A DNA stretch of 33,915 bases. Source: a virus. Location of the stretch: positions 1 through 33,915 of the IMG/VR virus record IMGVR_UViG_3300029977_000006. One strand, written 5' to 3'. The notes under the pieces are model-generated. The model saw only the letters and a list, made by a program, of their open reading frames with translations, made no database searches and had not been told where the DNA came from. Made by a program: the position numbers and the translations under genes. Below are positions 320 through 31,516 of the stretch, piece after piece (the stretch's first letter is position 1; each line of letters opens with the position of its first letter).

Positions 320-1075
320 ATGAAAATAGTTGGAGAAATAAATAAAAACAGGTTTCCAGGTATTGTGAAAAGTGTTGGAGTTGAAATTGAATGTGGAATT
401 TTTAAGAAAAAATTATATGATATTATGGATCATTTTTCTTGTGTGAAAGTCGGAGAGGATGGTTCTGTCTGTGTTGATTGTCCTGATGAATCTGATGATG
501 TGTGGAAAGAGAATGTTGAGATACGTTTTTGGAGTGATAATCTTAATGATTTATTGAAATTTATGAAGTATTGTTGGGATGTCGCTGGCGTTATTCAAAA
601 TGAGAGTTGCGGAAATCATGTCCATGTTCGTTTTCACAATTTTGTTCCATTCTGGTTTTCTCCATTTCCTTATTATTTTCTAAAAATGTATAAAAGAAAG
701 TATGCTGAAAACAGAAAGTATATGTTACGGTTAAGAAATGATTACTCCAAATCGTATAATTACCATAACGAGTTGATAGGTAGAATGTTGAGTGGTAATT
801 GTGATAGTCGTGAGCGTTATAAGTTTGTGAATTATATTTCGTATCCTAAGCATGGGACAATTGAGTTTCGTATTATGCCCTATGCTGAAAACTTTGAGGA
901 ACATAAAAGTCAATTGCTTTTTATTTTAGAAGTAATTGAAAAATGGAGCAAAAGAACAAGGAAACTTTATGAAGAACAATATTTTCTTCCTGGACAAGAG
1001 TTTCTCCAGGAAGAAGATGAAATTATAATAATGGAAGAAGGGGGTAGTAAGGATGAAATACAAATTATTCTTTGA
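320..1075 (+). CDS. amidoligase (COOH-NH2 ligase, glutamine-synthetase-like fold)
   Basis: This 251-residue protein carries the signature of the amidoligase family: GVEIE at residues 20-24 (metal and ATP-binding acidic residues), GEDGS at 45-49, VEIRF at 66-70, CGNHVHV at 97-103 and IEFRIMP at 181-187. Family members are predicted to use ATP to join a carboxylate to an amine, making amide or isopeptide bonds on small molecules or proteins. A GGGGGTG Shine-Dalgarno precedes the ATG and the candidate pseudoknot at 257-305 lies just upstream. The 3' end overlaps the next gene by 23 bases, and a class II glutamine amidotransferase follows one gene later; this is a known pairing that can supply ammonia. 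The substrate is unknown. Two long hairpins (910-939 and 984-1015) lie in its coding sequence. Confidence 0.85.
   Translation: MKIVGEINKNRFPGIVKSVGVEIECGIFKKKLYDIMDHFSCVKVGEDGSVCVDCPDESDDVWKENVEIRFWSDNLNDLLKFMKYCWDVAGVIQNESCGNHVHVRFHNFVPFWFSPFPYYFLKMYKRKYAENRKYMLRLRNDYSKSYNYHNELIGRMLSGNCDSRERYKFVNYISYPKHGTIEFRIMPYAENFEEHKSQLLFILEVIEKWSKRTRKLYEEQYFLPGQEFLQEEDEIIIMEEGGSKDEIQIIL
910..939 (+). other. 12-bp RNA hairpin within the amidoligase gene
   Basis: Bases 910-921 pair with 928-939 around a 6-base loop, with two G-U pairs and no mismatch. It is AT-rich and so weaker than its neighbours. It belongs to the hairpin cluster of the first 3.7 kb. Confidence 0.5.
984..1015 (+). other. perfect 11-bp inverted repeat near the amidoligase 3' end
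   Basis: TTCTTCCTGGA (984-994) and TCCAGGAAGAA (1005-1015) are perfect complements with a 10-base loop. The stem ends about 20 bases before the Shine-Dalgarno of the next gene (ATG at 1053). No T-run follows, so it is not a classical terminator. Confidence 0.7.
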
Positions 1076-1541
1076 CAAAAGTAGTTGCAAGAATTATTTC
1101 GTCCTCAAGTATGAGGACGGAGAGTGGGAACAAGTTAAAAGCAAGTTAGAAGAATTAGGATTAGAGAGAAGGAGAACTGAGAACTTATGGGGTAAAGGAT
1201 TAATGGCAGAATTTTACAAGGAATCCAATGAAGAATTGAAAAGAATGTTAGAATCTTGCGAGTATGTGAATGTTGGAAGAAATGTTTATTATTGTGATGA
1301 TATAAATAGTTCGTTTTATAGCAACGGAAGAGTGAACATCGCAATCTTCCGTGTTGTCCCTGCGAATGGTGAAGTAAAAGCTGAGGTGGATAACTTTTTG
1401 ACTGTAAATGATTTTAGAAAAATCATAATTGGATTAAAGTCGGTATTTCAGATGTTGTTTAATATAGTTACGGAAAAGGAAGTGGAGATAAAGATTGTAA
1501 AGAAGGGGGTGGGGGACTATGTGTCAGATAGCAATATGTAA
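1053..1541 (+). CDS. hypothetical protein between amidoligase and glutamine amidotransferase
   Basis: This 162-residue protein is not recognised. It is charged, with a helical-looking first half (residues 25-70), a beta-like middle and no membrane segment. Its frame overlaps the amidoligase by 23 bases and the amidotransferase by 23 bases, so the three genes are translationally linked; a role in the same pathway is an inference from this. A GGGGGTAGTAAGG sequence precedes the ATG. The coding sequence contains hairpins at 1100-1119 (8 bp, AGTA loop), 1324-1352 (8 bp) and 1408-1426 (8 bp). Confidence 0.75.
   Translation: MKYKLFFDKSSCKNYFVLKYEDGEWEQVKSKLEELGLERRRTENLWGKGLMAEFYKESNEELKRMLESCEYVNVGRNVYYCDDINSSFYSNGRVNIAIFRVVPANGEVKAEVDNFLTVNDFRKIIIGLKSVFQMLFNIVTEKEVEIKIVKKGVGDYVSDSNM
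1100..1119 (+). other. 8-bp hairpin with tetraloop early in the 1053-1541 gene
   Basis: CGTCCTCA (1100-1107) pairs perfectly with TGAGGACG (1112-1119) around the loop AGTA. It lies about 47 bases after the start codon. A weaker 11-base inverted repeat with one mismatch (1062-1072 with 1089-1099) abuts it on the 5' side. Confidence 0.55.
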
Positions 1542-2208
1542 TAGGAAAATAACTAATGAAGAGATAAATAGTTTCTGGAATAGTAATAATGACGGAGCCG
1601 GTGTCATTTACAGATACGCCGGCTTCGTCAAATGGAAGAAGGGGGTTATGAGGAAAGATGATTTAAGGTCGTTTGTTGAAAAATTGAACCCGCCTTATGT
1701 CATTCATTTCCGTGCTGCAACGCATGGAAGTGAATGTCCTGAGCTAACTCATCCATTCCTTGTCTCAATGTCCAATCCTTTAGAAGGAATATTAAAACAA
1801 GGTCAATACTTGCTTATGCACAATGGAGTTGATAGTGATGCAATAAAAATGTTAATGATTGCAATGTTTGCTAAAGGACAGAAATGGAATTTCAGAGAGA
1901 TGTCAGATACTCGTGCGATTGCTATTCTGTTGTCAGTGTTAGGTATTGAAGCTGTAAGTCAATTTTCTGGTAAGTTTGTTATTGTAGACCATAAGTTCAA
2001 CATCAGGACTTATGGTCAATTTACAGAAAAAAATGGCATATTACTGAGCAATGGAACTCAGATGTATATATATGAAAGGTATGACTATGCGACAAGAGAT
2101 TGTATATATAAAAATGAACCTGCTAATTGCCCAACGAAGAACTACAGTAAATGCCCGATGGTATGGAAAAATTGCCCATACACTTATTGGAACAGGGGGG
2201 ATGACTAA
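1519..2208 (+). CDS. class II glutamine amidotransferase (Ntn-hydrolase)
   Basis: The protein is 229 residues and begins Met-Cys, so removal of Met exposes Cys2 as the N-terminal nucleophile of class II glutamine amidotransferases. Further family motifs are DGAGV at 25-29, HFRAATHG at 63-70 (glutamine-binding arginine and Thr-His-Gly), HNG at 101-103 and SDTRA at 129-133. The enzyme releases ammonia from glutamine. There is no fused synthase domain, so the acceptor should be a partner protein; the amidoligase two genes upstream is the obvious candidate. An unusual C-terminal cluster of cysteines (195, 204, 212, 219) could bind metal. A GGGGGTGGGGG Shine-Dalgarno precedes the ATG. Hairpins at 1590-1630, 1701-1736 and 1987-2017 lie inside the gene. 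Confidence 0.88.
   Translation: MCQIAICNRKITNEEINSFWNSNNDGAGVIYRYAGFVKWKKGVMRKDDLRSFVEKLNPPYVIHFRAATHGSECPELTHPFLVSMSNPLEGILKQGQYLLMHNGVDSDAIKMLMIAMFAKGQKWNFREMSDTRAIAILLSVLGIEAVSQFSGKFVIVDHKFNIRTYGQFTEKNGILLSNGTQMYIYERYDYATRDCIYKNEPANCPTKNYSKCPMVWKNCPYTYWNRGDD
1590..1630 (+). other. 12-bp GC-rich hairpin early in the amidotransferase gene
   Basis: TGACGGAGCCGG (1590-1601) pairs with CCGGCTTCGTCA (1619-1630) around a 17-base loop: 12 bp with one G-U pair in the + sense. It lies about 70 bases after the start codon, in an otherwise AT-rich sequence. Confidence 0.7.
1701..1736 (+). other. 15-bp RNA hairpin within the amidotransferase gene
   Basis: CATTCATTTCCGTGC (1701-1715) pairs with GCATGGAAGTGAATG (1722-1736) around a 6-base loop. 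All 15 positions pair, two of them as G-U in the + sense. The DNA encodes the region of the HFRAATHG active-site motif, so the stem coexists with strong coding constraint. Confidence 0.75.
1987..2017 (+). other. perfect 10-bp inverted repeat late in the amidotransferase gene
   Basis: GACCATAAGT (1987-1996) and ACTTATGGTC (2008-2017) are perfect complements with an 11-base loop. A shorter perfect stem, GTATGG/CCATAC (2161-2181), lies near the end of the same gene, before the next Shine-Dalgarno. Confidence 0.65.
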
Positions 2209-6520: not shown

Positions 6521-6670
6521 ATGATAAAATACGATATAAAAGATATAGAGATATTACACAAAATATTTAAGAAATACAGGATTTTAAAAGCGTTATACCC
6601 TATTTTAAGACAATATTTCAATATTAAGAGATCAACATTATACCACAAGTTGAAAAAGAACAAGAATTAA
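6521..6670 (+). CDS. small basic protein, possible HTH
   Basis: A 49-residue protein starting at 6521, after AAAGGGGGTATAAT. The C-terminal half (ILRQYFNIKRSTLYHKLKKN) has the pattern of a Fis/HTH recognition helix. An upstream in-frame start at 6479 is possible but lacks a ribosome binding site. It is the last gene of the + strand module. Its TAA shares the palindrome TTAA with the stop of the opposing gene at 6667-6828. Confidence 0.55.
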   Translation: MIKYDIKDIEILHKIFKKYRILKALYPILRQYFNIKRSTLYHKLKKNKN

Positions 6671-6828: not shown

Positions 6829-7068
6829 AAAATCAATTTAAACCCCTTAAATTAAAAAAATTAGACACGTTTTACCTAACCCTAATATTAACCCCTTAGG
6901 ACTATACAATACCCCCCTAATTTTTTTAATTTGACCCCTTAAAACCGATTTTCAATTTAAACCTATCAAATTCAAAAAAATAGACACTTTTATACCCTGA
7001 CTAATATAATACTACTTGAAAATGAAAAAGACCTAAAATTGTTAAAGTTTGACCCATTAAAAACGATT
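6829..7068. repeat. repeat-rich intergenic region at the convergent junction
   Basis: This region separates the + module from the end of the - block. It holds two copies of an A-run followed by TAGACAC, a T/C run and a TATAAT-like block about 18 bases later (6862-6891 and 6981-7010). The second reads as a plausible + strand promoter (TAGACA, 18 bases, TATAAT). It also holds TTGACCCCTTAAAACCGATT (6931-6950), and a variant at 7049-7070 runs into the ATP-grasp 3' end. Related copies occur at 33643-33790. I see no clear intrinsic terminator for either converging transcript. Confidence 0.5.
6931..6997 (+). repeat. 67-bp direct repeat, left copy
   Basis: It begins TTGACCCCTTAAAACCGATT and ends near TATACCC. 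It aligns in the same orientation with 33724-33790 (same TTGACCCCTTA, CGATTTT and A-run plus CAC-TTTTA blocks in the same order). The two copies flank the 26-kb - strand block. Confidence 0.5.
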
Positions 7069-8343
7069 TTAAAACCACCATCTCAACTCTTTTAACCTAT
7101 CTATCCTTTTCTTAGCGTGTTTTACCCCATCCCCTACCCTAGCACTCATTGTTGGTAAAAGGATGTTGTCTAAGATGTTTATAGCCTTTTCCTCAGCTTT
7201 GAACATGTCTCTATCATAACTACTAACACATAATATTAAACCATCATCAGTATAAACTTCTAACCCTTTATCTCCTAACCTACAACCTATAGGCCATATA
7301 TGATCCCTATCCTCTGACCTATAAAATATAGGCATACCAGTATATTTCTTAAAAACATTATTCTCATCAGAAGGATATTCAGGTAATACTACATTAACAG
7401 CATAACCATAACCATCTTTCAACGGAACTTTATCTAAACTACCTTCAGCTAACTTAATAAAATACTCACCTATAGGTATATCAAGTAATTCTATAAAAGC
7501 ATACATAAAATTCCATCCTAACCTAGGCGTAAACTCTAATCCATATACACCACTATCATTAACTATACAGTTTATATCTAAAGGTCCAGTATATCTCAAC
7601 TTCTCCATAAGTAAATATATCTTCTTGAAAAATTTCTGCACTATATAAGGCTCTAATTTATCTGATTTAAATATAACACTAGTAGAAGACCCTACAGTAG
7701 GTCCTAAATCATTAACATCTCTCTTCTTAGTCTCAAATGTATATACTATAGGATATAAAGGCTTCCCATTACTAAATTCTATCTCTGAACTTACTTCATA
7801 CCCATCTATCTTCTCTTGTAATACCCATCTCTTATTAGCATACTCTGTAGTAGATACCCAATTTATAAATATATCTAACTCTGTTATATCCCTAGGGATG
7901 AAAGTAAGATAATTAGGAGCATCAAACATAGGTTTTAATACATAAAGCTTATCCCTATGATCACTAATAAAAGATTTTATCTCTCTAATATTTTTAAACT
8001 TATATATCTCTCCAGTTTTTATACCAGCCATCTGCATTATCTTATAACCAAAATCTCTATCATACTCTAACCTATCATTCATCACACCAGCACCTATAAC
8101 CTTATAGCCATCCTTCTTCAACTTATCAGCTATATCACCTTTACCTGAACCATCAAATACTATACAACTAGGCCTATACTTCAACCCTTCATTAATAGTT
8201 TTAACATAATTAACTACACCTTCTAAAGGTCTAAAACTATAAGGACACCAAACATATGTATCTATACCTTCCCTTATCTTAATCTTCCACGCTATAGGTA
8301 TAATACCATAATCTAAACTAACAAATAATATACTACGTCTCAT
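7069..8343 (-). CDS. ATP-grasp ligase, PurD (GAR synthetase)-like
   Basis: The 424-residue protein has an ATP-grasp layout like phosphoribosylamine-glycine ligase. It has a Rossmann-like N-terminus with FDGSGKGD at about 64-71, the lysine of VLKP near 135-138, and QEKIDGYEVSSE near 176-187. FETKKRDVNDLGPTVG (about 203-218) corresponds to the PurD HKR-GPNTGG segment, and LDINC with LEFTPRLG (about 255-276) gives the metal-binding Asp/Glu and Arg. It should form an acyl-phosphate and ligate it to an amine. I chose the second ATG of ATGATG because it leaves 4-5 bases after GGGAGGA. Its start abuts and overlaps the stop of the 1411-residue virion gene, so it is expressed late. It is a candidate partner of the amidoligase and amidotransferase. 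Confidence 0.8.
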   Translation of the reverse strand: MRRSILFVSLDYGIIPIAWKIKIREGIDTYVWCPYSFRPLEGVVNYVKTINEGLKYRPSCIVFDGSGKGDIADKLKKDGYKVIGAGVMNDRLEYDRDFGYKIMQMAGIKTGEIYKFKNIREIKSFISDHRDKLYVLKPMFDAPNYLTFIPRDITELDIFINWVSTTEYANKRWVLQEKIDGYEVSSEIEFSNGKPLYPIVYTFETKKRDVNDLGPTVGSSTSVIFKSDKLEPYIVQKFFKKIYLLMEKLRYTGPLDINCIVNDSGVYGLEFTPRLGWNFMYAFIELLDIPIGEYFIKLAEGSLDKVPLKDGYGYAVNVVLPEYPSDENNVFKKYTGMPIFYRSEDRDHIWPIGCRLGDKGLEVYTDDGLILCVSSYDRDMFKAEEKAINILDNILLPTMSARVGDGVKHAKKRIDRLKELRWWF

Positions 8344-11300
8344 CATTCCTCCCTAATATTGTTTATAAAATCCTGTGTAGCATCAATAATACTACTATCC
8401 GTTATCTGATACCTTTTCCTCATAAATTCAAATAAAGTCCTTAATATGTCCTTCTGATACCTAGCACCTACTAACTTCTTAGCCTCATTCTTTATCTTAG
8501 TCCTTAAAGCTTTTAACTCTTCTTTATTAGGTAAATAAGCATATGCTAACCTTAAATTGTCTAAATAATGAGCATGCAATTCTCTAATTTTATCATTATT
8601 GATTATATCTTCAACCTTATAACCTCTATTCATCAACTTCTGTATCTCAAATAACATCTCTTTATAAAACCTTATCGCAGCATCAGTATACCCCTTATAA
8701 TCTTTCTTCAACTCTTTAGTCGCTATATCTAACTCTCTAAACCTACGTTGTTCTACAGGATAAAAACCTATCATATAAGATATTGTCTCTGCTAAACTAG
8801 TAAAATATTTAACATTATCCTTTTCATCATAAATCCTTAAAACTACATCCGGTCTCACAGTATATACATCTTCAGGTCTCTTACCCTCAAGTAATATACT
8901 TTTAATATCTTCTCTAGCTATAGGACGTGCCTCAGGAACAGGTCCATACTCTAACGCCCTTATACCACGATATATACGTCTCATCGGAGTAGAAAAATTT
9001 GCTATAACACCTATAATCTTACTCTTATCATATGCTATCAACGGCTGTTTATCTATAAATTCATATGTAGCTGATAACAAATTCTTCATTATACCTACAG
9101 CAGGTATCTCAAACTGTATTATACCACCACCACTAAATATACTCATACCTGACTTCTTAATAAAATCTAACGCCTTCTTGTTATCTATACCTAAATTAAC
9201 TATACCCTTATACAAATAATCAAATTCTATACCAAGTGTGAAAAAATTAGCTAAATCTATACCAAGCTGATTTGTAGTATCATAAAATTCATTCGCTATC
9301 AAAATATAAGCAAATAATTTCTCAGGATTTTTCTGTGCCCAATCTATAAATAACTCTACTGTCTTCAAAGGAAAACTATAATATGGTAATAAAGGTCTTA
9401 ATAACGTCTCACTCCATAACTTAGGCATTCCCTTACCATAAATATATTGCGTCCTCTTCATAACTTCACTACCATACTTCACCGCAGCTTCTTCTAAACT
9501 ATAACCTAACTTCAAATACTTTGCTACCTCAGGTATCTTACCACCTTTATCTAACGCCATTAAATAACCAGTAAAATAACTATACCACCTGTTAAATAAT
9601 TCTATCTTACTCATTAAATAAAAAGCACTATCAGATATCTTGTTAAATAACCTACCCTCTACCCTCAACGTCTCTTTCATTGACATAATCTGATGTAAAT
9701 ACGGCATCTTCTCATAAGCACGTTTAAATACAGCATCCTTGTTCAAAGTATGATTTAAAGCTTTTATTAAATACTCTTCTGAACCAGGACCTAAATCTAT
9801 TAACCCTGATATTATCTGTGCACTATTACCTAAAGCAGTCCTTATATTCCAACCTATAGTAGTTAAATACTCAAGAAACGTTATCGTAGAAGATACCCTT
9901 TGTAAACTATCTACAGGTTTATAACCAAACGACTGTTTTAAATACCAATGTAAATAACTTTTAGCTAAAGGATCTTTAATCTTATCTCTTAACGAAAAAT
10001 ATGCTTGTAACACCGGCTGTTCATATATAACCTTATGCGCATTAATAACCATATCATCAAACATTTCTGAAGCACTAAACTTCCAACCAAAATCTGCTAA
10101 CGTCCTCTTCTTCAAATGTGGCATACTAACCGATACAGGCAACCAAGGCGCTAAACTTATTACATCTTTATTCTCTTCATAACCACTTATCAACTTCTTT
10201 AACATAGAATACTCCACCTTCTCCTCTTTAGTTAAACCCCTTAACTGACTTAAAGCCTCTAAATTTACTAACCTTAACTTCATCCTATCTAAATTACTTG
10301 GATTAAAATAATTTATACGCATATAAGCAGCTAACCTATGACCAGGTCCTAAATACGCAGAATTTAAAGTATTATGCGCAGTAGCTAAACTATCTGTCAC
10401 ACTCCTTATAAACTTAAATGGTTCTTCTAATATAGCATATTTATCACCAAAATCTTTAACAACTTCATCCCAAGTCTGATATTTATTCAACAATTTATGC
10501 AATTGATAATCTAACTCACTATGTTTCTTAATACCTAACTTGTTAAATAAAACATTTTTAGCCTCTATCAACTTCTGCGTTTCAGTAGCAGCTTTTGAAG
10601 TCATCACTATATCAAGATTGATTATACGATGTGCTATAGGATCACGCTTAAAATTATACGGAGATATTAAATTATATAAAAATTCTTTAGTAGCAGGATA
10701 TTTCTGTGCATCTTTAATAAAAAACTCTTTCACCTTATTAGGTAATAAATTCCAAAAATAAGCTATTTTCTTATTAGTTATACCTAAATCTTCAGCAGTA
10801 ATATTCTTTAACGGCTTAATCTCTTTCAACATCTCTGTCTTAACCTTCTTCATATGCTCTATATTATACGGATTATATACTTTATAAAAATTCCTAATCA
10901 CAGGACTATCAGGCGGTAATTCAAGATACATACCTACTGTCCTCATACTATCTATCGCTATTTGCCTACCTAATAAATCACCAGCAGTCTTCCCTATAGC
11001 CTTCTTTGACACTTCTTGCAACTTAGCCAACTCTTCTGCTGTCTTAAATCCTGATAACTCTATCAAAAACTTCTCTTCTAAAGAGGTCTTAGCAGAAATT
11101 ATAGCCCTCTTAATACTCTCATATGCAGAAACCTTCTTTAAATCATCAGCAGTAATATTAACAACACCCTCAATTTCCATACCACCTTTTAATATCTTCT
11201 TTATCCTATCATCAATAAAATCATTATACTTCTGTAAAATATCAAGCTGTTTATCAATTATCAAAATTTCTGGAACATCTTTTTTAGCTTTAACCTTTAA

Positions 11301-12578
11301 AGCTTTATTTATATTTTCCCTAGCTAAATTATATGTTCTTGTTAATAACCTATCCATCATTATAGTTTCTCTAACCTGTTTCTTATGTGCATCTCTATAT
11401 ATAGCTTCAATACGTTCAGATAAAGTCTTACCAACCTTTAACTCTTTAACAAATTCTTTCTCAAGTTCAGTCATAGTTTTTAACTTAGGCAACTTCTCAT
11501 AAGGTATAGCACGTAAAGTTAACGGAGCAGCTTTTGTCACCTCAGCAATAGAAGTATCAATAGCAGACCTCATCACCTCTTCTTCAACCTGTTTCAACAT
11601 AATAGTCTCTGGTCTTGTAGCACGTAAAGATAAATCTTTTAATACTCCACCTAAATTCTTACCAGTCAAAATTTCACTCAACTTATTCAAACTAGTAGCT
11701 TTACCTAAAACACTATAACCTACTAATTCACCACCTAATTTTAATATACTTTTAATACCAAAAGGTAATCTAGTAGCCTCCATTGCTAAAGATTTTTCTA
11801 TAAACTCTTTGTAATCAGCCCTTCCTTCACTCTGAGCTTTTCTAACAAAATCTTCCCAACCTGATATTTTTTCTAAAACCTCTTTTAACGTTATCTTACC
11901 CTCTAAATAATCCTTAAAATCTTCTTTAGTTAGCCTACCTGACCTTAAATAATTCCTTATATCACGTAAATTAGAATATTCTAATAACGCATCTGTTATA
12001 CCACCAAATGGTAATGCTAAAGTAAGACCTAATAACGGAACTTCTTTTATTGCTCTACCTAACCTATCATAAGTTTTACTAAAAGCATAACCTAATAAAT
12101 TACTATCTGTAGGATTTTCTGCTATAGCACTTACCTCTTTTGCTTTAATATCTACTAATTCCTTTTCTTTTTCAAACTCTTTCCTCTTATGCCATAACTC
12201 TGCAAGATCTCTTAATGTTTTCTTCTCTAACTCTGAAACACTTTTAATACCATAAACTTTTAAATATGGAGCTAACTCTGAAGGTTCTTGAATATTCCTT
12301 GGGATAAGCCTTGAATAATATTTTAGACGAGCCTTTCTTGAAGCCTCTTTTGCTACTTCATCAAGAAATTCATCTACATTATAACCTGTCCCTTTTAACC
12401 TCTCTTTAGTAAAATCTTTTATCTTAAACCTTAAAAAATCATCTATAACTTCTAACCGCTTCTGTTCTTCAACACCTCTTACTTTATCAGCTAATAAATC
12501 ATTATACTCAACCAATAAAGCAGCATAACTATCAACAGCTTGTCTATAAAAAGGTTCTTGTTTAAATTTCTTTTCCAT
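8343..12578 (-). CDS. very large virion protein (putative internal/ejection protein)
   Basis: The 1411-residue protein is the largest in the window. Long amphipathic helices dominate, with no signal peptide. Around residues 180-200 there is a hydrophobic Gly/Leu segment (LLGLTLALPFGGITDALL), and a second hydrophobic, aromatic part spans about 890-1180. I recognise no catalytic motif such as a lysozyme. Its length and its place after the nozzle and before the end of the late operon match the giant internal or DNA-ejection proteins of podoviruses and the polyvalent-protein-like virion proteins of other phages. The ribosome binding site is weak (AAGATGAG). Confidence 0.55.
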   Translation of the reverse strand: MEKKFKQEPFYRQAVDSYAALLVEYNDLLADKVRGVEEQKRLEVIDDFLRFKIKDFTKERLKGTGYNVDEFLDEVAKEASRKARLKYYSRLIPRNIQEPSELAPYLKVYGIKSVSELEKKTLRDLAELWHKRKEFEKEKELVDIKAKEVSAIAENPTDSNLLGYAFSKTYDRLGRAIKEVPLLGLTLALPFGGITDALLEYSNLRDIRNYLRSGRLTKEDFKDYLEGKITLKEVLEKISGWEDFVRKAQSEGRADYKEFIEKSLAMEATRLPFGIKSILKLGGELVGYSVLGKATSLNKLSEILTGKNLGGVLKDLSLRATRPETIMLKQVEEEVMRSAIDTSIAEVTKAAPLTLRAIPYEKLPKLKTMTELEKEFVKELKVGKTLSERIEAIYRDAHKKQVRETIMMDRLLTRTYNLARENINKALKVKAKKDVPEILIIDKQLDILQKYNDFIDDRIKKILKGGMEIEGVVNITADDLKKVSAYESIKRAIISAKTSLEEKFLIELSGFKTAEELAKLQEVSKKAIGKTAGDLLGRQIAIDSMRTVGMYLELPPDSPVIRNFYKVYNPYNIEHMKKVKTEMLKEIKPLKNITAEDLGITNKKIAYFWNLLPNKVKEFFIKDAQKYPATKEFLYNLISPYNFKRDPIAHRIINLDIVMTSKAATETQKLIEAKNVLFNKLGIKKHSELDYQLHKLLNKYQTWDEVVKDFGDKYAILEEPFKFIRSVTDSLATAHNTLNSAYLGPGHRLAAYMRINYFNPSNLDRMKLRLVNLEALSQLRGLTKEEKVEYSMLKKLISGYEENKDVISLAPWLPVSVSMPHLKKRTLADFGWKFSASEMFDDMVINAHKVIYEQPVLQAYFSLRDKIKDPLAKSYLHWYLKQSFGYKPVDSLQRVSSTITFLEYLTTIGWNIRTALGNSAQIISGLIDLGPGSEEYLIKALNHTLNKDAVFKRAYEKMPYLHQIMSMKETLRVEGRLFNKISDSAFYLMSKIELFNRWYSYFTGYLMALDKGGKIPEVAKYLKLGYSLEEAAVKYGSEVMKRTQYIYGKGMPKLWSETLLRPLLPYYSFPLKTVELFIDWAQKNPEKLFAYILIANEFYDTTNQLGIDLANFFTLGIEFDYLYKGIVNLGIDNKKALDFIKKSGMSIFSGGGIIQFEIPAVGIMKNLLSATYEFIDKQPLIAYDKSKIIGVIANFSTPMRRIYRGIRALEYGPVPEARPIAREDIKSILLEGKRPEDVYTVRPDVVLRIYDEKDNVKYFTSLAETISYMIGFYPVEQRRFRELDIATKELKKDYKGYTDAAIRFYKEMLFEIQKLMNRGYKVEDIINNDKIRELHAHYLDNLRLAYAYLPNKEELKALRTKIKNEAKKLVGARYQKDILRTLFEFMRKRYQITDSSIIDATQDFINNIREE

Positions 12579-12590
12579 AGATTTCTCATC

Positions 12591-13649
12591 TTATTTCTTC
12601 CGCTTTTTCTCTTCTTCCATCATATATTCTTCAATTTTCTTCATAAAATCTAAATCTGGAACACCTGTAGAAGGTTGAACTTCATATTGAGATTTCTGTT
12701 CTACCGGAGCAGTTAAAGTCTTCTTTAAATCTATTTGTTGTTGTCCCATCCTTTTTAAAATCTTATTTCTAATATTTTCTGAAGTCCCTTCAGGAAATCT
12801 ACCTAATTGTCTATAAAATTCTTCAAACGCTAAATCCCAACGAGAAACCTCATCTAAATGAGCGTAATATGAATTTTGATCAATTCCATTCTTAATATAA
12901 GTCAAAATTGCACGATCTTTAGCAACAATTCTATCCAATTCTTTTAAATATTCAAGTGGTAATTGTAATATACCTAATAAAGTTTTTTCACTTATTGGAA
13001 CCCCTGTCTTAGTATAAACCCTTAAAGCATTTTTTACTTCATCACTTACAGGTAATGTATTAATCTTTTCTTCAGTTAAAAGTATTGTTTTATAATATGG
13101 TGTATAAGTTTGAGTAATATAGCCATATTCTGAAGGTGTCATACCAGCAGGTTTAGTTAAAACTACTCCACTTGGCGTAATTATCTTCATCTCGCCTAAA
13201 GAAGCAACTTCAAGTGCTGTGGAGGGTTTTACCATCTCTTCTGATAAAATAGGATATTGTAAACCAGCAGGTGTTGTTAAACCAAGAACCGCTTTCAACT
13301 CTAAAGCTAAACTTTCTGGAATTTTACCCTGCTTTTTAGCCTCTTCAAATTTCATCTTAACATATTTCTCTGGTTTATTTAACGCTTTAGCTATATCATC
13401 TATAAATTCTTCACGAAATAATATACTTGGATCTGTAGTTCTCTCTGAAACTAATATATTTCTTAAATCTTTTATAGCCTCAGCTTGCTTCTTCTTATCC
13501 CGTTCTTCCAATCTGTTTAATATATCTAATATATCAGAAGATAAAGCTGCACTAGTCCTTGCTATTTCTAACAATTTTAATGGAGTTGTTCCTGTTTCAA
13601 CTTTAGTTATATGTTCTGTAGTCGGTTGTCCTATTTCTCTTATAGGCAT
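12591..13649 (-). CDS. putative virion-associated protein
   Basis: The 352-residue protein is mostly helical and charged, with the segment LILTEEK-like beta pieces in the middle and a highly charged C-terminus (EEYMMEEEKKRKK). No family is recognised. An AGGAGGTATAAACAT sequence sets the ATG. Its position between the nozzle and the giant virion protein suggests an internal core or ejection component. Confidence 0.6.
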   Translation of the reverse strand: MPIREIGQPTTEHITKVETGTTPLKLLEIARTSAALSSDILDILNRLEERDKKKQAEAIKDLRNILVSERTTDPSILFREEFIDDIAKALNKPEKYVKMKFEEAKKQGKIPESLALELKAVLGLTTPAGLQYPILSEEMVKPSTALEVASLGEMKIITPSGVVLTKPAGMTPSEYGYITQTYTPYYKTILLTEEKINTLPVSDEVKNALRVYTKTGVPISEKTLLGILQLPLEYLKELDRIVAKDRAILTYIKNGIDQNSYYAHLDEVSRWDLAFEEFYRQLGRFPEGTSENIRNKILKRMGQQQIDLKKTLTAPVEQKSQYEVQPSTGVPDLDFMKKIEEYMMEEEKKRKK

Positions 13650-13662
13650 ATGTTTATACCTC

Positions 13663-14199
13663 CTATGCTCCTCCTAATATTTTTGCTAAAAGAAGACTTA
13701 AAGATGTAATCGCTGTTATCCAATCAAGTGGTGTTTCCTCTCGTTTTATTTCTTGAATTACTCTCGTTGTAGTGGGCGAAGGAACATATACTTCAGGACT
13801 TATAGTAAGTTCTGCTAATCGCATTGGCATTTGATATAACCCAGTTAATGCTTTCACTAAATCTAATTGCCTTTCTAAAAATACATCAGCTACATTCCTC
13901 ATCATACTACCATATATATCCCTTAACCCTGTAACATACTGAGGCGTATACCCTAACCCAGCACCTATAAATTTTGAACCTAACTTCTTTGTCTCTTCTT
14001 CTGCAGCTTTTGATAACAATTCATACCCAGGTAAAGCAGTTGGAGAAGTTATACCCCTTCTTAAAATATCAGATAATCTTGGCAACATAGAAAAATAACC
14101 AGCAAATATTGATTGCAACTCTTCTTTTGGATAAAAATATTCAGGTTCTACTACAAAAGGTTTTTCTTTTGGTAAATCTAAAGGTTTTATCTCTGCCAT
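13663..14199 (-). CDS. putative virion-associated protein with hydrophobic C-terminus
   Basis: The 178-residue protein has a Pro-rich N-terminus (residues 5-25), a helical middle and a hydrophobic end (WITAITSLSLLLAKILGG) that could insert into a membrane during DNA ejection. No family is recognised. Its clear AGGAGGTATAAATTT ribosome binding site and its place in the row of late genes suggest a small internal virion protein. Confidence 0.6.
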   Translation of the reverse strand: MAEIKPLDLPKEKPFVVEPEYFYPKEELQSIFAGYFSMLPRLSDILRRGITSPTALPGYELLSKAAEEETKKLGSKFIGAGLGYTPQYVTGLRDIYGSMMRNVADVFLERQLDLVKALTGLYQMPMRLAELTISPEVYVPSPTTTRVIQEIKREETPLDWITAITSLSLLLAKILGGA

Positions 14200-18810: not shown

Positions 18811-19758
18811 TTATAAGCTTGTTATATGAACTATTTTTGCTTCACCAGGATTACCAGTATCCCAAGTTGGAGCAAAACCACCCATATAATACCAAGCAAC
18901 ACCTTTAGAACGACCATAATCTTCTGGTATCTTAGCCCTTATTTCTTCAGGTATTACAACACCTTCTACTACAGGATCAGCACCAAATACTATACATTCA
19001 CCAATATAAGAAGTAGTCCCTAATACAACTGATAAAGCATTTGTCTCTTCTACAAATCTACATTTATAAATTCTTCCTATCTCACCACGGAACAATCTTT
19101 CAGGATCACCATATTTTGCAGCTTCAATAAAATCTTGACTATCCATAATTTTTCTTGCAACATAAGAAGAAACTATAGCAACATAATTTTCACCATCGTA
19201 AGGTGGAACTTTCAACACTTGCTTCATATAATCAATTACATTTTTTATATCAGCTAATGTAATATCTCTTGTAGCAGTAGCTGCTGGTGTTCCATTAGTT
19301 GATATCTGATATGAAGGTGAAGAAGCGGTTCCAGTTGGAGTATATTTAACTTTTGCTTGAGCAAAAGCTTCATAACAAGCCTTATCTAACACTTTTGCCA
19401 TATCATCTCTTAAAGCAACAGTCCATATATTTTCAACAGAAAATTCTGCTAACGCTTCTAACTTACCAGTATATGGTATTGAATTACCATATTCTCTAAC
19501 AATTACCGCACCTTTAGATATCACAACATTGGTTTCTGGTATCTTTTGAGTTTCTTCTAAAGGTCCACCTGCATTTTGAACATTTGATATTCTGATAAAC
19601 TCTATTCTATCACCAACATTCTTACCAAAACCAGGCTCCGGTCTAACAAATTGTCTGAACTTCATTAAAGGTTGTGCAGCATGTCTTATAGTTCTTGACA
19701 ATCTCGGGTTAGCTAAATAACCACCTGCTGTATTAACTTGCCAATATTGTCCTGCCAT
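18811..19758 (-). CDS. major capsid protein (N4 gp56-like, HK97 fold)
   Basis: The 315-residue protein matches the N4-gp56 type of HK97-fold capsid proteins: an N-terminal arm, GDRIEFIRIS near 48-57, an E-loop region with EYGNSIPYTGKLEALAEFS, a spine helix (TVALRDDMAKVLDKACYEAF), and then ITLADIKNVIDYMK, YVAIVSSYVARKI and IGECIVFGADPVVEGV with a late Trp-Tyr-Tyr motif. It would form the icosahedral shell. A strong AAAGGAGGTAAACTACT ribosome binding site and the scaffold-like gene just upstream support this. Confidence 0.85.
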   Translation of the reverse strand: MAGQYWQVNTAGGYLANPRLSRTIRHAAQPLMKFRQFVRPEPGFGKNVGDRIEFIRISNVQNAGGPLEETQKIPETNVVISKGAVIVREYGNSIPYTGKLEALAEFSVENIWTVALRDDMAKVLDKACYEAFAQAKVKYTPTGTASSPSYQISTNGTPAATATRDITLADIKNVIDYMKQVLKVPPYDGENYVAIVSSYVARKIMDSQDFIEAAKYGDPERLFRGEIGRIYKCRFVEETNALSVVLGTTSYIGECIVFGADPVVEGVVIPEEIRAKIPEDYGRSKGVAWYYMGGFAPTWDTGNPGEAKIVHITSL

Positions 19759-21109: not shown

Positions 21110-21412
21110 TTAATACTTTTTAGCAAACGGATCTTTTTTACCACCTTTAGGTTCTTTTTCTTTTGTTATAGATGTTGCTTTAGGTCTTACTTCATTCCAT
21201 ATCCTTGCTGCACCCATTCTTTCTTTTGGTAGTGTCCCATACATTTCTTTCAAACTGACACTTTTTCTACCCCCAACATCATCAGGAACTTCTTTTTTTA
21301 CATTAAAATCTATTTCTTTTTCAGGGAGATATTTTTTATCAAGCCCATAAGCATAGAAATTTATTTTTATTGCCTCCTCAGGAAATACTAGGTGTTTTTC
21401 TTTTTTTGTCAT
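21110..21412 (-). CDS. hypothetical head-region protein
   Basis: The 100-residue protein is charged, with a Gly/Lys-rich end (PKGGKKDPFAKKY). It overlaps the portal gene by 35 bases and has an excellent AAAGGAGGTAAAGGTT ribosome binding site. No family is recognised. Its place between portal and scaffold suggests a minor head protein. Confidence 0.6.
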   Translation of the reverse strand: MTKKEKHLVFPEEAIKINFYAYGLDKKYLPEKEIDFNVKKEVPDDVGGRKSVSLKEMYGTLPKERMGAARIWNEVRPKATSITKEKEPKGGKKDPFAKKY

Positions 21413-23228
21413 AACCTTTACCTCCTTTTAATTGAGATAATAATATTTCTTGTTGCATTTTTAATAATCTCATTTTTTGGACATATTCTTCAGGCAATAA
21501 TAAATCTTCAGTATCTAAATCTAATAAAGATGCTATTTGTTTTAAAACATTACTAAAGTTTATATAATCTGCTACTGGCGTATTCATAATAAATTCTAAA
21601 AAATTAAGCAATTTTTCAATATTTTGTCTTTTATTTATTAAACCCGATATACCTTTGACTTCAAAATTAAATATATCAATAAGTTTTCTCTTTTCTTCAT
21701 CTGGTAAAGCAGCTAATATTTTCATCTTGTTCTTAATATCTTCTTGTATTTCAACAAATCTTATATCATCAAAACTTCTTTGATATTGCAATATTAAAAT
21801 AGCCATCATTTTGAGCAATGGCGATAAAACGTTATCTTCTATACAAGAAGCAATATCTTCAATAAATGCTGAACTTTGTTGTGATTTTATAGCAACTTCA
21901 GTAGCAGTAGGTCTTCCTCTTGTAGCAGGTTTACCTAATAAAAATTCTGTTGTTCCAGTAGCATTTTGAAATTCTCTATCCATTTCTTGATAAATTCTTA
22001 AAATTTGTGGTGATACTTGTCCTAAACTTATTTCTCTAATAAGCGGTAAATTAGCACCACCACCTCTTTTCTTAAATACTTTACCTGGATAAATACCAGT
22101 CGTTAGTTCTTCAGGTTTATATAAAAGATCCATATCTATTTCAAACGCTTTAGCAGTTGCATAACTATTTGTATCTATCATCATATTTAACAATTCTGTT
22201 AATACAAATGCTAAACCGATACTATCTTCAAAGAAATTTTTATGATAAACACTTAAAGGTCTCTTTATAATAGGTCCCCAAATAAAAGGTGCTTTTTTAT
22301 GCCAAAACGGATTTTCTATAGGTCCTCTGATAAGATATTTTTCATTAGCAATAGTCCAAGTGCAATTTCTAAATATAATATTACCATATTCATCAAACAA
22401 ATCACCCCAAAATTCCCATAATTCAACTTGTTTTCTAAAAGTAGGTTTTTTAGTAATAGCCATTCCTTTCCTTACTGCTTCTTTATATTCAAACTCTTGT
22501 TTTCTATAATCTTCCTCAATTTGTTCAACAACTTTCATATTATAATTTGATTTTTCAGCAATTTCTTTTAAATCTGATAAATCCATTGTTATTCTATGAA
22601 TAACATATTTATACCTACCAGTTGGATCTATAAAGAAATCAAAGGGGTCTACAACAGCAATTTTAAGTTCTTCAGTATACATTGACAAAAATTCTTTTTC
22701 TGCTTCAGCAAAACTACCACCTAAACTTTCTAAAACAATATCTTTTAAAGTTTTTTCTTTCTCTTCTTTTATATCAGCAACAATACTTTTTTGAGGTATA
22801 GTAGTCCCTTCCATAGTTTGTGAAGTCTTCCAATAAACTTTAAAAATCATTAAATTTGATAATAAACCACAAATTAATGCTTCATCAAAAATTTGATTAA
22901 ATTTGTTAATATTTAACCAATACAAAATATATCTTTTTAAAACAGGTTCATAACTTGAAAATTTTTCATTTAAAAATTTAACAGTAAACCAATCACCTTC
23001 TTGAGTTATAGCCTTTTTAACAAAACCTACTATAGCCCTTACAGCATTAGATATTTTAGGTAAATATTGTTTTGATTGCCATTCTGCTTTTTTAGAAAAA
23101 TCATACTGATTATTGTATAAATTATATACTTTTTGCCATATAACTTCAATAGGTTTTCTTGCTTCGTAAGCTTCTTGCCAAAGTTGTAATGAATTATTAA
23201 CTATTTGTTTTTCTTCTATATCTTTCAT
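21378..23228 (-). CDS. portal protein
   Basis: The 616-residue protein has the pattern of podoviral portals: the N-terminal helix pair and NNQYDFSKKAEWQSKQYLPK (about 53-72), the wing region with AVVDPFDFFIDPTGRYKYV, and GPIIKRPLSVYHKNFFEDSI. There follows the stem/crown helix TGTTEFLLGKPATRGRPTATE and a long C-terminal helical region. Twelve copies would form the DNA channel and packaging motor dock. The ATG overlaps the TerL stop by 4 bases and has GAGGTGG upstream. Confidence 0.85.
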   Translation of the reverse strand: MKDIEEKQIVNNSLQLWQEAYEARKPIEVIWQKVYNLYNNQYDFSKKAEWQSKQYLPKISNAVRAIVGFVKKAITQEGDWFTVKFLNEKFSSYEPVLKRYILYWLNINKFNQIFDEALICGLLSNLMIFKVYWKTSQTMEGTTIPQKSIVADIKEEKEKTLKDIVLESLGGSFAEAEKEFLSMYTEELKIAVVDPFDFFIDPTGRYKYVIHRITMDLSDLKEIAEKSNYNMKVVEQIEEDYRKQEFEYKEAVRKGMAITKKPTFRKQVELWEFWGDLFDEYGNIIFRNCTWTIANEKYLIRGPIENPFWHKKAPFIWGPIIKRPLSVYHKNFFEDSIGLAFVLTELLNMMIDTNSYATAKAFEIDMDLLYKPEELTTGIYPGKVFKKRGGGANLPLIREISLGQVSPQILRIYQEMDREFQNATGTTEFLLGKPATRGRPTATEVAIKSQQSSAFIEDIASCIEDNVLSPLLKMMAILILQYQRSFDDIRFVEIQEDIKNKMKILAALPDEEKRKLIDIFNFEVKGISGLINKRQNIEKLLNFLEFIMNTPVADYINFSNVLKQIASLLDLDTEDLLLPEEYVQKMRLLKMQQEILLSQLKGGKGYDKKRKTPSIS

Positions 23229-24526
23229 AGATTAAACCACCTCGGTTCAGGAATTTCTAAATCATAATATTGTGCATCATACAATGCTGTGCTGTAATAA
23301 ACGTTAAAGATATATCTTAAAGCATCAACTAAATGTTCATAAAAACCATCTTTATAAGGAACTTCTTTGTTCTCATCTTTTGTATAAGTATAAGCACCAG
23401 CAAATGCTTCTATTAACCTTGGACATTCACTTTTTTTTATTATAAAAGCAGGTTTACCATTAATCAATGTATTTAATTTTTTTTGTATTAATTGTATCCC
23501 TATTTCAACTTTAACCCATTTATAACGTGGATTTAAACCTTTAGCTCTTAAAATATCACAAGAAGTAATTCTTGATTTATCCGATACATGAGCACCAGCA
23601 GGATCTACGCAATCTATAAATTCAGCACCATAAAATTCTTCATTAGACATTTTTATAATTTTATCAGCAAAAGTATCAAGATATTCATCTTTACCAAGAT
23701 ATTCTTTTAAAATAATAAACCTATCATCTTCATCTATTTGACACCATACAACAGCAGGTCTATGAAATCCAAAATCCCAACCACGTATTACAGGTTTACC
23801 TGGCATATAATTTACATCATCAGATACATGTAAGTTTTCATTAAAATCTTTAAATACTGGTGTTCCTTCTTCTAAAAATCCAAATTCACCCATTAAATAT
23901 CTTCTTCTCCAACTTTCTGGATATTTCTGCAATTCTTCAAGATATTCTTTTGGCAAATATATATTATCTAATGATGATGCTTTAACTAAAAAATAGTTTG
24001 GATCATTATTAAGAACAAACAATTTATAAATCCAATGATCAACAGTTGTAGGGTTAGAAGTTATCAGACCATAATGTTCAGGAACATTACTTAATCTTAG
24101 ACGACCTTGTAAATCTCTAAATAACAATAAATCAATATCAGATGCTTCATCTACATAAAAAGCACCTAAATTAAATGAACCTAACAATGCTCTTTTTTCT
24201 CTTTCTGACTTATATTCAAGTCCTCTAAACAATATTTCAGAACCATTAATAAATATTAGCCTTCTTTCTGATTTTTTATATTCTTTAATCAATTCATTAG
24301 GACATTCTTCAAAGAACATTCTTTGAGTAGTATCTCTCAAGTCAGTAGAATATTTTCGTGCTACTAATATACAATTTCTAGGGAACCTCATTGCTAAATC
24401 AATACATTCCCAAATACCAGCTTTTGTCTTACCTGACCCCCAACCACCTATAAACGCTTTATATTTTGCTTTTGATTTATGAAACTCTAATTGTTTAGGT
24501 AAAGGCTGATAACCATATATTTTCAT
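23225..24526 (-). CDS. terminase large subunit
   Basis: The 433-residue protein carries the packaging ATPase and nuclease domains. Walker A is GGWGSGKT at 27-34, Walker B with the catalytic Glu is FYVDEAS at 123-129, and the coupling motif is SNPT at 157-160. The RNase H-like nuclease shows GWDFGF (Asp251), DCVDPAG (Asp308) and a C-terminal HLVDALRY. It cuts concatemers and pumps DNA through the portal encoded next. No small subunit is adjacent; the HTH protein at 31025-31516 is a candidate. Confidence 0.93.
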   Translation of the reverse strand: MKIYGYQPLPKQLEFHKSKAKYKAFIGGWGSGKTKAGIWECIDLAMRFPRNCILVARKYSTDLRDTTQRMFFEECPNELIKEYKKSERRLIFINGSEILFRGLEYKSEREKRALLGSFNLGAFYVDEASDIDLLLFRDLQGRLRLSNVPEHYGLITSNPTTVDHWIYKLFVLNNDPNYFLVKASSLDNIYLPKEYLEELQKYPESWRRRYLMGEFGFLEEGTPVFKDFNENLHVSDDVNYMPGKPVIRGWDFGFHRPAVVWCQIDEDDRFIILKEYLGKDEYLDTFADKIIKMSNEEFYGAEFIDCVDPAGAHVSDKSRITSCDILRAKGLNPRYKWVKVEIGIQLIQKKLNTLINGKPAFIIKKSECPRLIEAFAGAYTYTKDENKEVPYKDGFYEHLVDALRYIFNVYYSTALYDAQYYDLEIPEPRWFNL

Positions 24527-25185
24527 TCTTCTTTCAACCCCATAGCATATTCTGTTATTTCTTGTTCAGGTGTTTTTTCTCTACCAGTCCCTCTTTTAGG
24601 CACTTCTTCACCATATAATTTCCTATGCGTTTCTCGTCTCTCTTCTTCTGTTTTAGGTCTTGAAGTCATTATTTCTTTTTCTGCCTTTTCCTCATCAGAA
24701 TTAGATGAAGGATCAACAACTTTATCCTCACCAATGATTCCAGCAACTGCTTCTCTGTTTTCTGGCATATCATCAACAAATTTTACTATTTCATATTGTT
24801 TTTGTAATTCAGCGACCTTCTGTGCTTTATTTTCAGCAGTAGATTTAATATCTCTTAAATCTTCATTAACAAAAACTATTTCATCATAAGGAATATCAAA
24901 CTTTTTTAATTGTTGCTTTGTATAATCTTTTGCTTCACCAACCCTTCCAGTCATTATAAAAACACCATTTTCATCAGCATCTTGTTTTAATTGATTTATA
25001 ACATCTTCTTTAGGTTTATCAGTATCAATATATTTTTTAGAATTAAAGATTTTCATAATTTCATCATATTGTTCATCTGTTGCTTCCTCTAAAGATTGAA
25101 CACCAACTTCTTCAAGCGATTTAGACAATCTTTCAGAAACATCTATCAACGTTCCATCTAGGTCATATATAACTATTTTTTCCAT
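24523..25185 (-). CDS. HAD-superfamily phosphatase
   Basis: The 220-residue protein has the HAD motifs DLDGTL (about 8-13), the Thr of FIMTGR and FVDDMPEN, like the phosphatase domain of T4 polynucleotide kinase and related 3'- or 5'-phosphatases. The last 60 residues are a charged tail. I start at the ATG at 25185 because AGGAGGTG lies 7 bases upstream; a GTG at 25194 is inside that site. It overlaps TerL by 4 bases. It could act on nucleotides or DNA/RNA ends; the substrate is not evident. Confidence 0.8.
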   Translation of the reverse strand: MEKIVIYDLDGTLIDVSERLSKSLEEVGVQSLEEATDEQYDEIMKIFNSKKYIDTDKPKEDVINQLKQDADENGVFIMTGRVGEAKDYTKQQLKKFDIPYDEIVFVNEDLRDIKSTAENKAQKVAELQKQYEIVKFVDDMPENREAVAGIIGEDKVVDPSSNSDEEKAEKEIMTSRPKTEEERRETHRKLYGEEVPKRGTGREKTPEQEITEYAMGLKEE

Positions 25186-25209
25186 ATAACTCACCTCCTA
25201 ACATAAATT

Positions 25210-26037
25210 TTATAAAATTTTGTCATTTATTCTCAAGGTTACAAAATTTGTATCGTTTAGTTCACATTTGCCATTTTTCAACACTGAATAAGCATAACCT
25301 AAATATTGTGTTTCTGTCCTATACCCTGAAAATTTGCTATCAACAGTATAATCAAGTGTCTTACACATTGAACCACATTCAATACCTAATTTTCCTTTCC
25401 TAAACATCTTTATCTGTCTATGAGTATGTCCTATAATAACACAATTGAAATCAAGTATTCTACTCTCAAAATACTCTATTGTCCAATCTACTGCTCTACC
25501 ACGAACAATAGAATTCACTTCAGGATGTGCAATAATAACATCACCTATTTGACAAAACCAATTGTTAACTAAAATCAGATTTTTGTATCTAAAGAAATTT
25601 GTTAATGATAATCCTAAATCAACTAAATCAGTTGCAACATCATTCGGTAAAGTTCTATACAAAAACTTCTCTAATCTCAACTCGTGATTTGCTTTTAAAT
25701 ATATTATTGGTATTTTAAAACTACATAAAATTTCTAAATATTTGTTTGCTAAATCAATTTCTTTTTTTGCTGATACAATACCATCTATATGAATAAACCT
25801 GCTAAATTTGTCAAAATTAACAAAATCACCTGCTATAATCAACAATTTTGCATTTTTTAATCCTGTTTCAAGGAACTTTTTGAAAACATTTAAATCAATA
25901 AATGGAATATGTAAGTCAGAGATAACTACAAGTTTACCTGTAAAATTTTTATATTTTTCTTTTATCTGTTTTAATTCAACTTTTTTCTGTTCCCACAAAG
26001 TTAACAATTCTGTTAACCTTTCAAGTTTATTACTCAT
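25210..26037 (-). CDS. calcineurin-like metallophosphoesterase
   Basis: The 275-residue protein has the full set of metal-binding motifs: DLH at 41-43, GDFVN at about 70-74, NHE at 117-119, AHPE and GHTH. Such enzymes hydrolyse phosphomono- or phosphodiesters, including cyclic nucleotides, 2'-3' cyclic ends or nucleic acid. The N-terminal 30 residues form a coiled coil. It lies directly upstream of the HAD phosphatase gene, so the two may act on one substrate, such as nucleic acid ends or signalling nucleotides. Confidence 0.8.
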   Translation of the reverse strand: MSNKLERLTELLTLWEQKKVELKQIKEKYKNFTGKLVVISDLHIPFIDLNVFKKFLETGLKNAKLLIIAGDFVNFDKFSRFIHIDGIVSAKKEIDLANKYLEILCSFKIPIIYLKANHELRLEKFLYRTLPNDVATDLVDLGLSLTNFFRYKNLILVNNWFCQIGDVIIAHPEVNSIVRGRAVDWTIEYFESRILDFNCVIIGHTHRQIKMFRKGKLGIECGSMCKTLDYTVDSKFSGYRTETQYLGYAYSVLKNGKCELNDTNFVTLRINDKIL

Positions 26038-31041: not shown

Positions 31042-31516
31042 TATTATTTTCCTCCTTAAAAGACACGTAAACAATTTTTCTTGAATTTAAAGATTTTTCT
31101 GTAGTTTCTTTATCAAGACCCATAGATTTAAGAACTTCAAAAATATATTTATCTTCTTCTCTTAGTTGTTGAAGGACTTCTAGTTTAAGTTTAGATTTAT
31201 CATCCAGCATTTTATACAAATTCCATAATCTATTAACACGAGTATTATGTCGTTCAAATAAATCAAATAAGAATGATACCATTTCATCTCTATATTCTTC
31301 CCATTTTTTGATAGCTGCTTTAGCATATCTTTGTATAATTTTTATATATCTTTTTACTACAATCTCATCAACATTTAGAGCAGCAGCAATATCCTGTGGT
31401 GTCCATCTTTCAACATAATATAGTCGTCTTATAGTAGCCAACAAAGTTTTTTTCTTTGTTGCGATATTTTTTATTGGTGGTATAGGTTCTTTAACAACTA
31501 TTTCATTATTTTGCAT
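31025..31516 (-). CDS. HTH protein, candidate terminase small subunit
   Basis: The 163-residue protein has an HTH at about 28-58 (RWTPQDIAAALNVDEIVVKR) and a long coiled coil at about 65-135. An N-terminal HTH followed by oligomerising helices is the plan of many small terminase subunits. TerL is 6.5 kb away, so the call rests on architecture alone. It could instead be a late regulator. Confidence 0.45.
   Translation of the reverse strand: MQNNEIVVKEPIPPIKNIATKKKTLLATIRRLYYVERWTPQDIAAALNVDEIVVKRYIKIIQRYAKAAIKKWEEYRDEMVSFLFDLFERHNTRVNRLWNLYKMLDDKSKLKLEVLQQLREEDKYIFEVLKSMGLDKETTEKSLNSRKIVYVSFKEENNNDQNS

Follow-up and report, generated by a model that had tools for sequence, protein, structure and literature searches.

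We regard, with moderate confidence, the PurD-like gene that ends the late operon of an uncultured phage as a member of a family of PurD-derived, non-PurD ATP-grasp ligases that is found in podoviral virion-assembly operons and may act in virion assembly or ejection. This reading draws together the predicted fold, the pattern of conserved residues, a phylogeny separate from that of PurD, the recurrent neighbourhood of the gene (head, portal, ejection and tail functions) and the geometry of its coupling to the gene before it. The enzyme is most likely an amide ligase used in virion assembly. The DNA analysed, referred to here as the window, is the 33,915-nucleotide virus record IMGVR_UViG_3300029977_000006 at its full length.

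The open reading frame (ORF) of the ligase is genuine and runs without interruption. The minus-strand block ends with it, opposite a plus-strand block whose end is at 6670. The original prediction placed the gene at the close of the late block, with its start overlapping the stop of a 1411-residue ORF, and both coordinates and sequence confirm this: the start region is AGGGAGGAATGATG, which holds the TGA stop of the 1411-residue ORF, so that the ATGATG start of the ligase is overlapped by that stop. As read from the sequence, the spacing from the ribosome-binding-like stretch upstream is better for the second ATG than for the first. The features referred to in the text are the following.

320..1075, plus strand: early amidoligase-like protein (Amidoligase_2, 21 bits against a cut-off of 22; 22.5 bits with the neighbouring stretch)
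1519..2208, plus strand: early class II glutamine amidotransferase (GATase)-like protein (GATase_6, 24.7 bits against a cut-off of 27)
7069..8346, minus strand: PurD-like ATP-grasp ligase, 425 residues if started at the first ATG, 424 if at the second (8343)
8354-8347, minus strand: ribosome-binding-like stretch AGGGAGGA in the 3' end of the 1411-residue ORF, read from the sequence
8343..12578, minus strand: 1411-residue late ORF, by position a probable large internal virion or ejection protein; family matches weak and below cut-off
12591..13649, minus strand: 352-residue late ORF, gene 2 of the presumed ejection set by position only; no family match
13663..14199, minus strand: 178-residue late ORF, gene 1 of the presumed ejection set by position only; no family match
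18811-19758, minus-strand late block: HK97-type capsid protein
21378-23228, minus-strand late block: SU10-type portal
23225-24526, minus-strand late block: large terminase
Minus-strand late block: two SU10-type adaptors
24523-25194, minus strand: HAD-type phosphatase at the head of the late block, overlapping the start of the terminase gene
25210-26037, minus strand: metallophosphatase, likewise at the beginning of the late block
32066-33091 and 31498-32076, minus strand: D12-class adenine methyltransferase beside a ParB-like protein

The terminase, SU10-type portal, HK97-type capsid and two SU10-type adaptors of the late block indicate a podovirus of SU10-like build. The 1411-residue ORF is the longest in the window and, judged by position only, would encode a virion protein. 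Scanning viral contigs with this protein gave one match, a fragment 92% identical that ends inside the gene. Between 6400 and 14500 of the window no terminator-like site was found, and promoter-like sites occurred at chance level. Where the early and late blocks converge, the AT-rich gap contains a 40-nt direct repeat (6833-6872 and 6952-6991; 85% identical, spacing 119); a terminator-like hairpin was likewise not found in this gap.

The likeness of the ligase to PurD is well beyond chance. The window protein matched TIGR00877 from residue 72 on (E=3.6e-21, 75.5 bits against a curated cut-off of 288) and exceeded the cut-off of GARS_A (E=2.2e-8). All 42 family members scanned matched TIGR00877 (best E 7.4e-37), 41 of the 42 matched GARS_A and 39 GARS_C, and none matched GARS_N at E 0.001. 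When a profile of 29 relatives was compared with solved structures, 11 PurD sequences came first (E 3.2e-52 to 7.6e-35), and non-PurD ATP-grasp enzymes appeared only at E 5.8e-7 or worse. The predicted structure of the window ligase (pLDDT 91.6, falling to 79-86 in the loop region; pTM 0.90) gave the same answer, the top 13 solved structures all being PurD (Z 30-35 over 380-401 residues, 16-20% identity). PurK, PurT and biotin carboxylase, considered as the nearest fold, were rejected since their structures score below PurD; PurK/PurT, the next family, reached a Z of about 24. The PurD-first profile matches and the structural match over the whole length thus make the ligase PurD-like by descent and by fold. 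Membership of the ATP-grasp superfamily is supported by the GARS_A match, by retention of K138, E184, K207, E271 and R275, and by the predicted fold.

With PurD as both the nearest family and the nearest solved structure, the gene could be taken for a genuine PurD that the phage retains as an auxiliary metabolic gene to supply purines. We find this hardly credible in view of the residues, the tree and the cellular genomes described below. The statement of the original prediction that the phage has no other purine synthesis gene held for the 24 window proteins scanned against Pfam, PHROGs and/or NCBIfam, out of 52 ORFs listed, the remainder being mostly short.

Residues were counted over 76 phage rows, 80 ‘cell’ rows (among them L151, a viral contig), the window and 22 PurD rows, near-copies included. 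One relative with a large insertion (L005), two duplicates (L006 and L009) and ligase ORFs shorter than 400 residues (L018, L064, L070, L072 and L084) were left out of the counts and of the trees. PurD residue roles were mapped onto the window ligase by spacing and motif as part of this analysis. In PurD, D212, R287 and E292 bind glycine and K103, K143, E185, E192 and K214 bind ATP (PMC8880213).

The substrate side of the active site sets the family apart. RxGDPE and the N-terminal GxG[GA]RE loop are each present in 22/22 PurD sequences and in 0/157 family rows, window included, and the start of PROSITE pattern PS00184, as quoted in an excerpt of PMC3261824 and tested as R[LF]GDPEx[EQIM], was found in 17/22 and 0/157, respectively. 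The PurD ExN has become ExT in all 157 family rows (the window and 156/156 relatives). Two of the three glycine-binding residues have changed: D212 is replaced by glutamate in 157/157 rows, and the position of E292 carries glutamate in 22/22 PurD and 0/157 family rows. The third, R287, is kept as R275 in the window and in 156/156 relatives. An aspartate absent from PurD, D257, occurs in the window and 150/156 relatives.

The nucleotide side is largely preserved. The ATP/Mg residues E100, K143, E192 and K214 (PurD numbering) are kept in the family, E192 in 153/156 relatives; in window numbering, E94, K138, K207, E271 and R275 are kept in all rows and E184 in 153/156 relatives. Among the ATP residues, K103 has become arginine in 157/157 rows and E185 glutamine in 156/157, the window included. 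With the PurD substrate residues replaced and most ATP-binding residues kept, the natural reading is of a working ATP-grasp ligase that would join another acid to another amine. As a sequence key, these residues separate PurD from non-PurD at once. The original prediction had listed VLKP, NDLGPTVG and LEFTPRLG as PurD-type segments; all three are present, but the last is not PurD-type, since PurD has E-[FY]-N-x-R-x-G-D-P-E at this place, and LEFTPRLG therefore marks departure from PurD and not retention.

Phylogenetic analysis sustained the view of a PurD-like enzyme distinct from PurD itself. The 13 PurD rows formed one side of a branch supported at 100/100 and found in 100% of 200 bootstrap trees, with the window on the other side, and the ligase is accordingly PurD-derived and not PurD. 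In this second tree the window's side of the PurD branch held 22 phage and 11 ‘cell’ rows. The first tree, with rows thinned by identity to 47, agreed in placing the window outside PurD; it also joined the window and L016 as a pair of long branches, and the second tree was therefore built without L016. L012, L029, L044, L056, L061, L066, L074 and L075 were removed as well and nine ‘cell’ rows added. The window then grouped with phage rows L010 and L017 (95/83) and, together with L011 and L013, in a group of five (100/99).

The family also has a cellular branch. A search of bacterial and archaeal genomes returned 155 relatives, of which the best 80 were kept. In 26 cellular genomes the paralogue scored about 85-127 bits on TIGR00877, and 21 of the 26 carried a separate true PurD over cut-off (417-566 bits), which again argues against a role in purine supply. 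Ten undoubted cellular rows formed one clade (100/100) nested among viral rows in the second tree, with modest bootstrap values of 87-91 on the placing branches, a topology that suggests virus-to-cell transfer of the paralogue. L151, filed under an uncultured archaeal assembly, carries the ligase and is a near neighbour of the cellular clade in that tree; it is viral, having an SU10-type portal and, by eye, a GroES-like ORF. Upstream of the cellular paralogue, no family occurred in more than two of the 28 neighbours scanned, out of 32 close ones.

Two haloarchaeal PurD-like proteins, Hlac_1553 and rrnAC0307, were judged not to be actual GAR synthetases in an excerpt of a 2011 paper, which describes them as having neither GARS_N nor the Mg2+ sites and as missing the Asp that is conserved in R[LF]GDPE (PMC3261824). 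The ligase family likewise lacks GARS_N. The resemblance is one of description only and extends to two archaeal proteins, for which that excerpt gives neither a function nor a viral link (PMC3261824).

The window copy is itself unusual within the family. Its loop at 218-222 reads VGSST, shared by 0/156 other rows, most relatives having TGEMG (108/156), CGEAG (22/156) or TGEQG (14/156). Residue 206 is T in the window ligase and H in 135/156 relatives, and the window ligase forms the longest branch of the tree (2.2). The altered loop, T206 and the long branch make the predicted activity of this copy less sure than that of the family; its sequence suggests that specificity may have drifted or activity been lost. 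The deviations at 206, 218 and 220-222 and the branch length are what would be expected of a virion or assembly protein that has kept the fold and lost the chemistry, at least in the window phage. We consider this improbable, given that E94, K138, E184, E205, K207, D257, E271, T273, R275 and G277 are all kept and that the model is confident overall. Another member of the family (L005:9770-12043) carries in this same loop (GPN/TGEMG) an in-frame insertion of ~310 residues that starts with Cys and has a LAGLIDADG match, and is probably an intein. A loop position of this type is typical of inteins in working enzymes.

At least 80 viral loci were matched in one profile scan, and the family is frequent in uncultured podoviral contigs. 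We studied 82 viral loci besides the window, taken from the profile scan and earlier matches with near-copies included; the context counts use the 56 with more than 6 kb upstream of the ligase. A PHROG-backed homologue of the head-closure protein Hc3 (phrog_578) or of an ejection protein resembling P22 gp7 (phrog_598) lay upstream in 36/56 loci, rising to 50/56 when clusters labelled by position (gp7b, a second gp7-type; ej2; ej3) were included. With position labels included, any gp7-type cluster was present in 38/56 loci and an ej3-type cluster in 38/56. The remaining six (L011, L012, L016, L040, L053 and L071) had no cassette homologue upstream of the ligase. The labels ej2 and ej3 are positional, one ej2 member partly matching an ‘endolysin’ PHROG and a PHROG search with one ej3 member giving no match. 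After thinning, and with 6/23 representatives of short upstream sequence set aside, 16/17 clade-A representatives had a cassette or tail-connector-like homologue, and clade-A ligases directly follow large ejection-type ORFs.

The coupling geometry recurs as well. In 41/77 loci, the 5/82 loci without upstream sequence being excluded, an upstream ORF of at least 150 residues overlaps the ligase by 4 nt (NTGA), the same geometry as at the window's first ATG; in 4 of the 41 (L044, L057, L062 and L065) the overlapping start is internal to the ligase ORF as read at its greatest length. In L010, L015, L016 and L040 the ligase lies among terminase- and portal-like ORFs, with scaffold-like ones too, and in L015 and L016 it is also near capsid-like ORFs, between portal and scaffold/capsid-like genes (some of these labels were assigned by eye). 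The portals of L015 and L040 are P22/SU10-type by Pfam. HMMs of the relatives' cassette proteins gave no match below E of about 0.08 to the 178-, 352- and 1411-residue set of the window, so that the context shared by the window is positional only. The virion-linked half of the original prediction, which had taken late expression to suggest virion proteins or the cell envelope as the target, is strengthened by these loci, many of which place the ligase among virion genes far beyond the window phage. Adjacency to virion genes nevertheless shows co-expression, not that a virion protein is the target. Inspected by eye, the virion proteins neighbouring the ligase showed no conspicuous C-terminal motif in common. 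The gene preceding the ligase in L011 looked like a GNAT acetyltransferase by eye; this was discarded as no Pfam family matched.

In many podoviral loci the ejection-type genes are immediately preceded by genes for an Asp/Asn beta-hydroxylase-like protein and a GNAT (L060:4524-5111, L070:4545-5000 and homologues). Of the 56 loci with long upstream sequence, 26 had the hydroxylase, 15 a GNAT and 10 both. A functional link of the ligase with this pair was considered and is not claimed, both genes accompanying it in those 10 loci only and both being present in Pseudomonas phage PfAn1, which has no ligase. Models of the two gave no match below E 0.07 to six late proteins of the window.

The isolate PfAn1 carries counterparts of the genes found before the clade-A ligase (Hc3, hydroxylase, GNAT and gp7-type), in the same gene order. 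Its late genes begin with an acetyltransferase and a pair of internal virion proteins, followed by a transglycosylase and then a tail protein. Between the end of the transglycosylase (17433) and the start of the tail gene (17444) lie 10 nt, where the ligase would stand. The ligase thus seems to be optional, added at a fixed point of the late cassette, although the ej2 and ej3 models did not match the second internal protein or the transglycosylase of PfAn1.

The transglycosylase annotation of the PfAn1 gene at the place adjoining the clade-A ligase is one reason to consider a late enzyme whose target would be the host envelope or a small molecule, such as a cell-wall precursor, amine or nucleotide conjugated to an amino acid, and not a virion protein. 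PurD itself acts on small molecules, and a GNAT gene often lies downstream of the cellular paralogue: among 40/49 close downstream neighbours plus that of L124, PF00583 was matched by 16/41 and PF13480 by 3/41, and a GNAT cluster occupied position +1 in 16 loci. We hold this reading to be doubtful, if with a real chance of being right. The PfAn1 transglycosylase has no detectable kinship to the clade-A ORF at the same place, the GNAT association is mostly confined to Bacteroidota (by record title), and the position of the L015 and L016 ligases between portal and scaffold/capsid-like genes also tells against it.

The original prediction further proposed that the ligase completes a trio of amide-ligation enzymes with the early amidoligase and GATase. 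These two window genes are weak matches and plausible as such, and phage UFV-P2 has an annotated amidoligase/GATase/ATP-grasp set (gp23, gp25 and gp28), so that a third enzyme of an early system could be imagined. The co-occurrence count did not bear this out, and absence from related phages is the outcome that the original prediction had itself named as counting against the idea. At E 0.01, over 50 records (48/82 relatives' records, the window and one terminase relative, L088), Amidoligase_2 (PF12224) and GATase_6 (PF13522) were each found only in the window, and in 0/48 ligase-bearing relatives; many of these records are fragments, and Amidoligase_2 is barely at cut-off even on the window. 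The Amidoligase_2 model also gave no match in any of 14 control genomes, and the count may therefore have passed over divergent partners. When viral contigs were scanned with the window GATase and amidoligase as single proteins, no relative was found. Moreover, the ATP-grasp protein of UFV-P2 is of another kind: gp28 belongs to an early operon, has 291 residues and is RimK-like (annotated as ribosomal protein S6 glutaminyl transferase), whereas the window ligase is late and PurD-like, and BLASTP of the window ligase against UFV-P2 gave gp28 as best match at a non-significant E of 0.40. The window ligase and the two early genes lie on opposite strands about 5 kb apart, and in OM43 phages the amidoligase and GATase are described, in an excerpt of the source, as a pair. 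A third enzyme of the early system is therefore a very unlikely role for the ligase.

If the ligase is an enzyme of the virion operon, as we favour, it would phosphorylate a carboxylate with ATP to give an acyl-phosphate intermediate, and the acyl group would then be passed to an amine as in PurD, although neither the acid nor the amine would be that of PurD. Less surely, expression would be late since the product is needed during virion assembly or ejection. In the simplest form the ligase would modify a virion protein, a step that we put forward less firmly than the chemistry.

Compared with known systems, the ligase has in common with PurD (GAR synthetase; TIGR00877, PF01071/PF02843) the fold of the whole chain, the ATP-grasp and C domains and most ATP-binding residues; it differs in having no GARS_N and no RxGDPE, in ExT, in the change of D212 to E, the loss of E292 and the extra D257, in its separate clade and in its place in a phage late operon. 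None of the PHROG matches for three family members scanned was better than E 0.018, and among the matches listed from the BFVD viral models none was whole-length (best TMq 0.50). Four queries over 50,697 phage records found the family in one, MW202796, where no feature is annotated at that place. The 28 other phage records matched by these queries carry PurD, 41-53% identical to the true PurD of MT839088. Many of the PurD-bearing ‘phage’ records (MT839088, OQ572412, OR845008 and others) are unannotated and may hold bacterial DNA.

A search of the literature, mostly of papers open without subscription, returned no description of a PurD-like ligase family in phages. PurD-descended ATP-grasp ligases are known as a kind of enzyme; new to us are this variant, the residues that mark it and the place of its gene. 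The family is an annotation trap, since purD models match its genes, and in an excerpt on a complete snow phage purD is listed as an auxiliary metabolic gene.

To our knowledge, the modification of phage virion proteins by ATP-dependent ligases has hardly been explored, and the hydroxylase-like and GNAT genes are further possible protein-modifying enzymes of virion operons. Speculatively, the podophage ligase may be a non-ribosomal one of purine-enzyme origin that attaches an amino-acid-like group to a protein of the ejection apparatus, portal or capsid as the virion forms, and the ‘extra PurD’ of bacteria and archaea may have been acquired from viruses.
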